Assembly: GCA_014654775.1 (NCBI GenBank)
Contig: JACVZW010000073.1
Coordinates: 124,001 to 188,000, forward strand
Direction: 5' to 3'
Length of the DNA stretch: 64,000 bases
Source of the DNA: Paracoccaceae bacterium
GTDB lineage: Bacteria > Pseudomonadota > Alphaproteobacteria > Rhodobacterales > Rhodobacteraceae
Positions 4,941 through 14,562 of this stretch are shown in pieces (position 1 is the stretch's first letter; each line of letters starts with the position of its first letter). The translations under genes and the position numbers were made by a program. The notes under the pieces were generated by a model that saw nothing but the letters and a program-made list of their open reading frames with translations, had not been told where the DNA came from and did not search any database.

Positions 4941-5080
4941 AGGCCTTTACAATGCAGGAGAATTGACGGCACCTTCGGGCGCGTTAAGGTTTGTCACCTT
5001 GGCGCATCCGGGTGTCGGATGCGCGACATGTGCCACGGGTTCCGAGTGCCAAAGTCTTTGCGGCGAGGGGGGTTCTGGGC

Positions 5081-5962
5081 ATGGCAGCGCCGTTTCCGGA
5101 TTGGAATGACCTAAGAGATATCCTGCTGATCACGGATGCCGGCAGCCTGTCGGGTGCCGCGCGTCTGGCCGGGATCAGCCAATCGACCATGTCGCGCCGT
5201 CTGGCGGCGATCGAGGCGCATGGTCAGCCGATTTTCCTGCGCGACGAGATGGGCCGGATGAGTCCCAATGCGCGCGGCCTGGAGATGGTCGCCGCGGCGC
5301 GTGAGATGGCCGCGATCTATGACCGGGTGAAGGCGCGTCTCACGGATGCGCCGCCGCCCCTGCGCATCGCGAGTTGCGAGATGCTGTCACGGCTGTTCCT
5401 TGCGCCGCAGGTTCCGGCTTGGGCGCTGCGGGCGGACAGCGCGGCGGAGGTGTCGGTGCATGACGATGTTTATGGGCTGGACCCCGACACTTATGACGTG
5501 ATGCTGGCCCCAATGGCCACCGCGCCAGAGCGGAGCACGGGGCAGGTGCTGGGATGGCTTTCGATGGCGCTGTATGCGGCACCGTCCTATGTGGCGGCCC
5601 ATCGCATCCGTGGGCGTCTGGAGACGCTGGACGGGCAGGGGGTGATCCGCGCCTCGCGTGCCTTGGCTGATGTGGAGAGCTATCGCTGGCTGGTGCGGCT
5701 TGGCGGGAATGTCTCGCTGCTGTCGCCCAATGTGCCGACGATGATGGAGGCCTGCGCGGCAGGTCTGGGCATCGCGCTTTTGCCGCAGGAGTTGGCCGGG
5801 AATGATGCGCGGCTTTTGCCACTGGACGGTCCGAAGGCCCCGCCCTGCGAAATCTGGGCGGTGGCCGACAGCAAGACGGCAGCGGACCCGCGGATTGCAG
5901 GTTTCCTGAAATGGGCGCGCGGGCAGTTCCGCGCGACCCATGCTGACGCGCGGGCTGGTTAG
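5081..5962 (+). CDS. LysR-family transcriptional regulator
   Basis: A 293-residue DNA-binding regulator. The N-terminal winged helix-turn-helix is visible as DWNDLRDILLITDAGSLSGA followed by ARLAGISQSTMSRRLAAIE, and the rest matches a LysR effector-binding domain, including a FLKWAR ending. An in-frame alternative start 30 codons upstream adds an implausible tail, so I prefer the ATG that begins MAAPFPDWNDL, which has a GAGGGGGG stretch upstream. The stop codon overlaps the stop of convergent typA. LysR proteins often control a divergent neighbour; the upstream gene here runs in the same direction, so the target is unknown. Confidence 0.9.
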   Translation: MAAPFPDWNDLRDILLITDAGSLSGAARLAGISQSTMSRRLAAIEAHGQPIFLRDEMGRMSPNARGLEMVAAAREMAAIYDRVKARLTDAPPPLRIASCEMLSRLFLAPQVPAWALRADSAAEVSVHDDVYGLDPDTYDVMLAPMATAPERSTGQVLGWLSMALYAAPSYVAAHRIRGRLETLDGQGVIRASRALADVESYRWLVRLGGNVSLLSPNVPTMMEACAAGLGIALLPQELAGNDARLLPLDGPKAPPCEIWAVADSKTAADPRIAGFLKWARGQFRATHADARAG

Positions 5963-7855: not shown

Positions 7856-8458
7856 TCAGGTGGCGATATAGCGGTCGCGCCTGTGGTTTATGGCGATGAC
7901 GAGGTTGACGACGGCTGCGCCGAGGAAGGACCACGCCACTATGGGCCAGGGCAGCAGAGTAAGGGCCACGGCGAAGAGAAGGGCGTCGAAGAGCAGTTGC
8001 GTATGGCCTGCGCGGAACCCGGTCCTGTCTTGCAGGTAGAGGGCGAGGATACCGATGCCCCCGAGCGAGGCGCCGTGGCGGAAGATGGCCAGCAGCGCCG
8101 CGCCCGAGACGAAGCCGAAGAGGATGGCGCCGAAGGCGGGGTTCAGCGTGGAGAAATCCACCCATCCCGGCATCAGCGCCGACAGCACTGATAGGGCAGC
8201 AACGGCGAGGAAGGTCTTGATCGTGAAGGGTAAACCCATCCGGCGGTAGCCGAACCAGTAGAAGGGAAGGTTGATGGCAAAGAAGACCGGGCCAAAGGGA
8301 ATGCCGCTGGCATAGGAGATCAGGACAGCGAGCCCCGCCGTCTGGCCCGTGATCATCCCCAGATGGGTGAGGATGACGATGCTGAAGGCCGCCATGGTAG
8401 CGCCGAAGGCAAGGCCTTGGGCATCTTCGATCAGGCTGTGGGTTTTCGGGTCGGTCAT
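7856..8458 (-). CDS. YitT-family membrane protein, copy 1
   Basis: A 200-residue polytopic inner-membrane protein with five or six hydrophobic segments. It resembles the YitT/DUF161 family in organisation, with N-terminal GMITGQTAGLAVLISY and central FGFVSGAALLAI glycine-rich helices and the C-terminal INHRRDRYIA tail. The family is widespread but its transport or signalling role is not settled. It lies 40 bases downstream of a clearly paralogous gene in the same direction, with the same length and ending, so the pair arose by tandem duplication and is probably one operon. Confidence 0.8.
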   Translation of the reverse strand: MTDPKTHSLIEDAQGLAFGATMAAFSIVILTHLGMITGQTAGLAVLISYASGIPFGPVFFAINLPFYWFGYRRMGLPFTIKTFLAVAALSVLSALMPGWVDFSTLNPAFGAILFGFVSGAALLAIFRHGASLGGIGILALYLQDRTGFRAGHTQLLFDALLFAVALTLLPWPIVAWSFLGAAVVNLVIAINHRRDRYIAT

Positions 8459-8498
8459 GGCGGGGGCTTATCGGCAGGCGCGGGCCTGCGCCAGAGGG

Positions 8499-9101
8499 TC
8501 AGGCGGCGATATAGCGGTCGCGGCGATGGTTGATGGCGAGGAAGAGCGAATAGGTCGCGGCGCCGAGGAAGGACCAGAGCAGGGTTTCGGGATCGAGGAT
8601 CAGGGCGGCGGCTGAGAAGATGACAACGTCCACGGCGAGTTGGACATAGCCTGCGGGGATGTTCCAGCGCTGTTGGATGATCAGGGCGGGGATGGCGAAG
8701 CCGCCGAAGCTACCGCCGTGACGGACCACGGCGAGGGCGGCGATGCCGAAGAGGATGCCGAAGAGGATGGCGGCGAAGGCAGGTTCCATCGGGCCAAGCA
8801 CCATCCAGCGCGGCAGGATTTCGGTCAGGGCGGCGAGGGCGGCGGTGGAGAGCAGGGTCTTGAGCGCGAAACGACCGCCCAGAACCCACCAACCAAGGGC
8901 AAGGAAGGGCAGGTTGATCGCGAAATAGACCAGCGAAAACGGGAGGTTGCCGGTATAGGCGATCAGAACCGCAAGCCCCGTGGTCTGGCCTGTGGCAAAG
9001 CCCATATGGGTGAGGATGTGGATGCCGAGGGCGGCCATGATGATGCCGAAGGCGATGCCTTGGATGTCTTCAAGGACGGAGTGGCGGCTTGGATCGGTCA
9101 T
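8499..9101 (-). CDS. YitT-family membrane protein, copy 2 (promoter-proximal)
   Basis: Second 200-residue YitT-like membrane protein, paralogous to its downstream neighbour. The two share the MTDP start, the GxxTGQTxGLAVLIxY helix, the FAINLPF helix and the INHRRDRYIA C-terminus. It has no recognisable soluble domain. As the promoter-proximal gene it follows a good sigma-70-type promoter covered by four phased GGTCA/TGACC half-sites, so the pair is probably tightly controlled by a repressor that is not encoded next door. Function is unknown; the YitT assignment rests on hydrophobic pattern and conserved glycines. Confidence 0.8.
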   Translation of the reverse strand: MTDPSRHSVLEDIQGIAFGIIMAALGIHILTHMGFATGQTTGLAVLIAYTGNLPFSLVYFAINLPFLALGWWVLGGRFALKTLLSTAALAALTEILPRWMVLGPMEPAFAAILFGILFGIAALAVVRHGGSFGGFAIPALIIQQRWNIPAGYVQLAVDVVIFSAAALILDPETLLWSFLGAATYSLFLAINHRRDRYIAA

Positions 9102-9124
9102 GGCTGCACCTGCGGGGACGGATG

Positions 9125-9165
9125 GGTCATAGCATGTGACCTTTATAGGGTCAAGTATGCTGACC
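9125..9165 (-). promoter_or_regulatory. Promoter with four phased half-sites upstream of yitT pair
   Basis: Read on the minus strand, a -35 TTGACC and a -10 TATGAC are separated by exactly 17 bases, predicting transcription from about 9119, some 18 bases before the start codon. Superimposed is GGTCA-N7-TGACC-N7-GGTCA-N7-TGACC: four half-sites alternating in orientation, each 12 bases from the next. The outer pairs make two 17-bp inverted repeats whose centres are 24 bases apart. This looks like a multi-dimer operator occluding the promoter. No regulator can be assigned. Confidence 0.7.
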
Positions 9166-14097: not shown

Positions 14098-14562
14098 ATG
14101 AAACTCTCGACCAAGGGACGCTATGCGATGGTGGCGCTGGCCGATCTTGCGCTGGCGAAAGGGGATGATCTTGTGTCGCTGGCCGAGGTGGCCAAGCGGC
14201 AGGACATCAGCCTGCCCTATCTGGAGCAGCTTTTCGTGAAGCTGCGCCGAGCGGGGCTGGTGGAGGCGGTGCGGGGGCCGGGGGGCGGCTATCGGCTGGC
14301 GCGCAGCCCCGATGCGATCCGCGTGTCGGATGTGTTGGAGGCGGTGGAGGAAACGGTGGATGCGCTGCATACCGGGGCGGGCGTGTCGGGCGGGCTGTCA
14401 GGGACCAAGGCGCAGAGCCTGACCAATAGGCTGTGGGAAGGGTTGAGCGCGCATGTCTATGTGTTCCTGCACCAGACGCGGCTGTCGGATGTGATCCGCA
14501 ACCAGATGACGCCATGCCCTGCCGTGCCGGCGCTGTTCCGGGTGGTGGACGAGGATGCCTGA
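14098..14562 (+). CDS. iscR: Rrf2-family regulator IscR with a single cysteine
   Basis: A 154-residue Rrf2 regulator heading the iron-sulfur operon. The winged helix-turn-helix is clear: MKLSTKGRYAMVALADLAL, then QDISLPYLEQLF and GLVEAVRGPGGGYRLAR. The three-cysteine cluster loop of classical IscR (around residues 92-104) is absent; instead the region reads TGAGVSGGLSG. The only cysteine is Cys140, in the MTPCPAV segment. This matches the unusual single-cysteine IscR described for Rhodobacter sphaeroides, reported to bind a cluster and repress iron-sulfur genes. A GGAGAGG ribosome-binding site precedes the ATG. A candidate operator lies upstream. Confidence 0.95.
   Translation: MKLSTKGRYAMVALADLALAKGDDLVSLAEVAKRQDISLPYLEQLFVKLRRAGLVEAVRGPGGGYRLARSPDAIRVSDVLEAVEETVDALHTGAGVSGGLSGTKAQSLTNRLWEGLSAHVYVFLHQTRLSDVIRNQMTPCPAVPALFRVVDEDA

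Follow-up and report, generated by a model that had tools for sequence, protein, structure and literature searches.

Closest described systems and the yitT locus

In Bacillus subtilis, AexB (YvjA) is an aromatic amino-acid exporter with five transmembrane (TM) segments and a cytoplasmic PII-like cap, and the accessible part of its description names no regulator of aexB (PMC13170310). The YczE and YitT families have DUF161 domains in common, and MocR (YczR) proteins are given as regulators predicted for YczE, a membrane family with DUF161 like YitT (PMC4944035). In E. coli, Lrp controls gltBDF (PMC1784095) and also the leucine exporter leuE (cited in PMC13170310), as stated in the accessible parts of these sources. 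The locus analysed here lies in a stretch of 64,000 nucleotides, hereafter the window, and comprises two genes of the YitT family, yitT1 and yitT2, flanked by typA and icd (Table 1). Both products gave profile matches to PF02588, a domain of five TM segments (107.9 bits for YitT1 and 87.6 bits for YitT2, with a cut-off of 24.3), and share 53% identity. The gene yitT2 is placed 40 bases downstream of yitT1, and the two are presumably co-transcribed. The order in which the tandem paralogues lie between icd and typA (window 7856-9101) recurs in many of the family loci examined.

AexB, which we take to be a member of the DUF161/YitT (PF02588) family, and YitT1 both have five predicted TM segments and probably belong to the same family; a statement joining AexB with the YitT family was not found in the open-licence literature. 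The two differ in the PII-like cap, which the profile search did not find in YitT1. MocR (YczR) regulators are defined for yczE genes, and no gene for one was recognised next to yitT. The OxyR-type sites of LysR-family tetramers consist of four alternating half-sites with 7-base spacers and T-N11-A dyads, and the array upstream of yitT1, known here from sequence alone, is similar in all these respects. It differs from OxyR sites in having GGTCA instead of ATAG, a repeat of 12 instead of 11 bases and, in many relatives, a single dyad. The regulon proposed below also resembles that of E. coli Lrp, in that one amino-acid-linked regulator would act on both glutamate synthase and an exporter.

Table 1. 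Positions of the genes, dyads and putative promoter elements in the window
Feature	Position	Strand	Remarks
yitT1, YitT-family membrane protein of 200 aa, first gene downstream of the array	8499..9101	-	PF02588, E 5.8e-31
yitT2, second YitT-family protein	7856..8458	-	PF02588, E 9.8e-25
Promoter-proximal dyad GGTCATAGCATGTGACC	9125..9141	.	overlaps putative yitT1 -10; matrix 23.2 bits
Distal dyad GGTCAAGTATGCTGACC	9149..9165	.	overlaps putative -35; matrix 24.5 bits
Putative -35, TTGACC	9149-9154	-	from sequence; inside the array
Putative -10, TATGAC	9126-9131	-	from sequence, inferred; 17 bases from -35
LysR gene	4991-5962		nearest helix-turn-helix (HTH) gene recognised
IscR-like gene	14098-14562		

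The array and its conservation at yitT genes

The plus strand at 9125-9165 reads GGTCATAGCATGTGACCTTTATAGGGTCAAGTATGCTGACC, corresponding to GGTCA-N7-TGACC-N7-GGTCA-N7-TGACC on the minus strand. The four regular, alternating half-sites described in the first-pass annotation were present exactly as stated, starting at 9125, 9137, 9149 and 9161 with a period of 12 bases and spacers of 7 bases. The interval assigned to them there, 9119-9165, was correct at its end and started 6 bases too early. The array lies 23 bases from the ATG of yitT1. The sequence of the TTGACC/TATGAC pair with its 17-base spacer within the array was also confirmed, as a putative promoter, and its hexamers overlap the second and fourth half-sites counted in gene orientation. 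Both dyads of the window contain T-N11-A, the dyad that characterizes the box of LysR-type regulators.

A chance origin had been called very unlikely, and the counts were in agreement with this. Exact GGTCA-N7-TGACC dyads occurred twice in the 64 kb window, with a shuffle mean of 0.06 and no shuffle out of 100 containing two; the expectation from base composition for the four-half-site array was ∼1e-7 per window and 8e-6 per 4.5 Mb. The whole genome contained 13 dyads vs 4 for the reversed control pattern. Eleven of these, other than the array's own, were inspected by eye; nine lay within long reading frames, one was part of a hairpin beside a gap-like gene and one lay ∼28 bases before a start (L004), and all eleven were dropped. 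Single dyads with up to two mismatches were no commoner in the window than expected (30 found vs 28.5), and hence weak single matches carry no meaning.

A scoring matrix was built from 60 yitT dyads only, with the gltD and IOR sites described below kept outside the training. In the window, only the two dyads of the array exceeded 5.2 bits, which was the score of the next-best position. Random sequence yielded matches of at least 15 bits once in 4 Mb of window-like and 13 times in 4 Mb of promoter-like composition. Matches of 19.7 to 21 bits were observed inside genes (L137, L155, L165, and L233), and four pattern matches of 15 to 20 bits had no assigned target (L218, L220, L231, and L248). As high scores thus occur elsewhere too, a site was considered credible only in combination with promoter position and conservation. 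The pattern matches at L155 and L165, in genes for substrate-binding proteins, were rejected as coding coincidences.

Conservation upstream of yitT orthologues, named beforehand in the first-pass annotation as the point on which its reading could fail, was evaluated and borne out at 80 yitT loci of named genomes, nearly all of which are Rhodobacteraceae or Rhodobacterales by label. The yitT genes were sorted by their identity to both window proteins, with one gene skipped at a contig end, and a dyad was defined by a score of at least 15 bits. A dyad was present at 32 of 32 yitT1-type genes, a count that is partly circular since yitT dyads were the training set of the matrix, vs 17 of 80 other yitT genes; the remaining 63 lacked it. 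Two dyads were found at 20 of the 32 yitT1-type genes, 17 times at 24 bp and three times at 25 bp. Within the genus, the exact array was present in 8 of 19 genomes including the window's own, with 23 to 34 bases between array and yitT1 start in all eight, and G006 formed a ninth case with two mismatches. The extended form TAGGTCA-N7-TGACCTA, allowing one mismatch, was found in 3 of the 19 genus genomes, in two of them at yitT1. Of the 18 aligned, matrix-selected arrays with 24 bp spacing, all retained TTGA and 17 retained TTGAC.

Across the 80 loci, the upstream region carried a pair of dyads at 24 bp or, in 3 loci, at 25 bp, a single dyad, or none. In many of the single-dyad relatives, it is the dyad overlapping the -35 that is kept; loci of the Roseobacter, Limimaricola, and Pseudotabrizicola types have a single dyad (GGTCA-N7-TGTCC and similar) that seems, on visual inspection, to sit between the -35 and -10 elements. 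Since a single convergent dyad is conserved alone, the binding unit appears to be the convergent dyad GGTCA-N7-TGACC, and since many relatives have only one, the four-site array is not essential. Neither the single dyad as the unit nor the 25 bp spacing in three loci had been foreseen in the first-pass annotation. The proposal of two dimers is compatible with the sequence, as dyad centres 24 bp apart would fit two dimers or one tetramer.

At six loci with altered gene order (L065, L068, L069, L071, L080, and L088), the yitT2-like gene has no dyad, and the dyad belongs instead to a second yitT-like gene of greater divergence. Of eight yitT loci on plasmids, one scored above 15 bits (Sinorhizobium pSymB, 23.1). 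The neighbors of yitT differed among the eight plasmid records, one of which is unannotated, and no regulator was shared among them. A weak site of 13.3 bits was also observed on a Paroceanicella plasmid (L148, 4811-4833), ∼100 bp ahead of a gene of the MarR family that adjoins yitT.

Sites of the same motif at gltD, IOR and other genes

A looser form of the pattern, with matches in 19 of 19 genus genomes among the matches listed and most of the 15 places examined lying inside genes, led to gltD, which encodes the glutamate synthase small subunit (profile match). The upstream region of gltD was readable in 17 of the 19 genus genomes, and all 17 loci carried a proximal dyad of at least 22.4 bits; the other two genomes were G004, with two recognisable gltD sites, and one whose contig ended too early. 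The window's own genome has three sites, of 22.4, 17.9, and 14.5 bits. In the family, gltD matches were obtained in 274 of 295 genomes, and a site of at least 15 bits was present upstream in all 45 genomes read, comprising the 28 nearest and 17 further loci that were hand-chosen (two of them for lacking LysR, with G261 left out). When the 17 loci of the genus were combined with the 28 nearest of the family, all 57 pairs of sites lying no more than 80 bp apart had spacings of 33, 41 or 73-75 bp. Such a phased pair was present in 37 of these 45 loci, with up to three copies at 33/41/74 bp. Such spacings come close to whole turns of the helix, and at the level of sequence, geometry of this strictness is strong evidence of function. 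Additional sites of 14.5 to 25.1 bits were located just past the 3′ side of gltD (L326, L328, L332, L335, L337, L342, and L348) and perhaps serve gltB or another neighbor. A gltD match was absent in G075 and G132; in G132, a family genome that is 97% complete, neither gltD nor a match to the LysR protein considered below was detected.

A search of the 295 family genomes with the one-dyad pattern yielded matches at 43 places, distributed over 42 genomes, vs 1 for the reversed control. Thirty of the 43 places were read: 21 were intergenic between a LysR gene and an indolepyruvate ferredoxin oxidoreductase (IOR) gene, two lay at a GntR/aminotransferase pair, one each at yitT and gltD, two were coding coincidences and three had no assigned target. 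The pattern was derived from yitT, so that these IOR matches were selected by it. The IOR gene was assigned to its family by profile, from a partial piece that stayed below the full-length cut-off. Twenty LysR loci were also taken from the top of the list of LysR matches in the family, outside the pattern matches, 18 of them linked to IOR and two to murI; a site of at least 17.7 bits was present in 16 of the 18 IOR-linked loci and absent in two. The gltD and IOR sites scored as high as the yitT sites on which the matrix was trained, and the motif is thus common to the three targets. The site is not confined to yitT, which the first-pass annotation had not foreseen.

The two sites at L163 and L177 (about 1460-1521) are both located between a gene for a GntR/FCD regulator and one for a class I/II aminotransferase, and this pair is possibly a further member of the regulon. 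The L177 aminotransferase and the L163 GntR protein matched MocR models only below the cut-off. Among 10 further plasmid loci, two scored above 15 bits, namely, an Azospirillum gltD site (15.7 bits) and a 17.7-bit site in the LysR locus of an Octadecabacter plasmid. The latter site is located where a gene for acetolactate synthase begins (L380, 105-127). No site of at least 15 bits was found at the plasmid gltD of Paracoccus jeotgali or at the plasmid IORs of Sinorhizobium and Bradyrhizobium. A 23-column sequence model, run on eight genus genomes at E up to 1, recovered gltD, yitT1 and, beyond these, a single small gene of G007. As it missed known sites, including the gltD of the window's own genome, this search says little about further targets. 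A strong site directly precedes the start of a small gene (MDY..TIPAP..), with 32.6 bits in L240 (G007:C1:549944) and 28.9 bits in L243 (G001:C229:4724), and the same site sequence occurs in G018.

Candidate regulators and the proposed regulon

As the first-pass annotation had noted, no regulator gene adjoins the array, whose neighbors are yitT2, typA, and icd, and no regulator was found to track the dyad in the 80 loci with flanks of up to 4 kb. The LysR gene listed in Table 1 was rejected as the regulator for poor tracking: genes of its type were found at seven dyad loci and one dyad-less locus (L073) and were absent from the examined flanks of 43 dyad loci. The IscR-like gene was rejected too, being near 11 dyad loci and 11 dyad-less ones; the best score upstream of its copy in the window was -7.7 bits, with no site in its own promoter.

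The protein regarded as the most likely regulator, tentatively and at somewhat below even chances, is the LysR protein encoded divergently from IOR (in the window's genus, divergently from murI). Matches at E 1e-60 or better were obtained for it in 288 of the 295 genomes of the family and in 258 of the 260 of good quality, a few of these matches being much weaker, and a clear orthologue was present in 18 of 19 genus genomes. The search for a regulator gene that carries the same site, suggested in the first-pass annotation, had a mixed outcome. The site is found in the LysR-IOR intergenic region in the 16 of 18 loci noted above; in murI-linked LysR regions, a dyad was found in 0 of 18 genus and 0 of 2 family loci, and the AsnC loci (below) and the iscR-like gene were also negative. 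The site therefore seems to be a property of the IOR promoter and not a sign of LysR autoregulation. All five LysR-negative genomes that were read keep their gltD dyads, namely, G004 and G201 (96% complete) and G064, G070, and G237 (64 to 86%). Five of the seven LysR misses in the family fall in genomes under 87% complete; assembly gaps may thus explain the misses, and the retained gltD sites neither reject nor support LysR.

The same regulon could instead be governed by a protein of the Lrp/AsnC family, which we consider unlikely. The phased sites are of the Lrp-type mode of action, the target set is Lrp-like, and the 1.5 Mb genus genome G004 keeps six AsnC genes along with its two gltD sites. 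However, unlike the Lrp regulon, none of 29 AsnC loci from three genomes carried a strong dyad, the best match being 11.2 bits; these loci were scanned whole, with starts located for only 2 of the 29, and autoregulation, though usual, is not obligatory. In 3 of 3 plasmid loci, IORs of a second type, linked to AsnC, had no match of at least 8 bits, and the arms of 4-7-4 with T-N11-A have the look of a LysR-type box. The Lrp consensus is, moreover, unlike the GGTCA-N7-TGACC motif. A quite unlikely reading retains the regulator and reverses its sign, so that yitT1 would be activated. Two dyads with T-N11-A are also the layout of LysR-type activators, and the gltD sites are far enough upstream for activation, whereas at yitT1 the putative -35 and -10 are themselves covered by the dyads, and some single-dyad relatives have theirs within the promoter spacer (by eye).

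That yitT1 has a dedicated repressor of its own, with the likeness to the gltD and IOR sites due to convergence only, is improbable. Dyad number and spacing do differ, being 24/25 bp at yitT and 33/41/74 bp at gltD, but the yitT matrix scores gltD and IOR like its training sites, random sequence rarely reaching 15 bits, and the absence of a tracking regulator in the flanks of up to 4 kb at the 80 loci, with IscR evenly divided, also argues against it. It is highly improbable that the half-sites are nothing but the hexamers TTGACC and TATGAC plus chance, with no operator. The putative -35 and -10 do overlap two of the four half-sites; however, the upstream GGTCA halves are kept though they lie outside any promoter consensus, column identity over 18 matrix-selected arrays was 93% for half-sites vs 60% for spacers, and the dyad of some lineages is apparently placed wholly between the -35 and the -10 (elements assigned by eye).

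The array is, on sequence grounds, probably an operator pair of one conserved amino-acid/nitrogen regulator of the Rhodobacteraceae acting on yitT, gltD, and IOR; with the motif common to the three, it would be the yitT branch of this regulon. Bound to the two dyads, the regulator would cover the -35 and -10 and repress yitT1-yitT2, a sign suggested by position only, and an amino-acid signal would relieve the binding. The same protein may occupy as many as three phased dyads ahead of gltD, probably as an activator, and one dyad in the IOR promoter, probably as a repressor, resulting in a feast/famine type of switch. Given the likeness to AexB and the co-targets IOR and glutamate synthase, the best guess for the role of YitT1 is export of amino acids; by this analogy, YitT1 is probably an exporter, most likely of surplus, perhaps aromatic, amino acids. 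It is possible, although doubtful, that an undescribed LysR-type feast/famine regulator encoded beside murI/IOR fills in Rhodobacteraceae the role that Lrp has in enteric bacteria, switching glutamate synthase on via three phased dyads and aromatic breakdown and the YitT exporter off, with the same dyad serving an activator at one promoter and a repressor at the others.

A description of the GGTCA-N7-TGACC motif or of a yitT/gltD/IOR regulon was not found in the open-licence literature, which is weak evidence of novelty. These observations place an isolated pattern in a hypothetical regulon defined by a sharp motif, with glutamate synthase and aromatic amino-acid breakdown as likely co-targets. 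They provide a testable function for YitT proteins, listed in Pfam as uncharacterised, and would open the control of ammonium assimilation through gltD in this large family to direct test.
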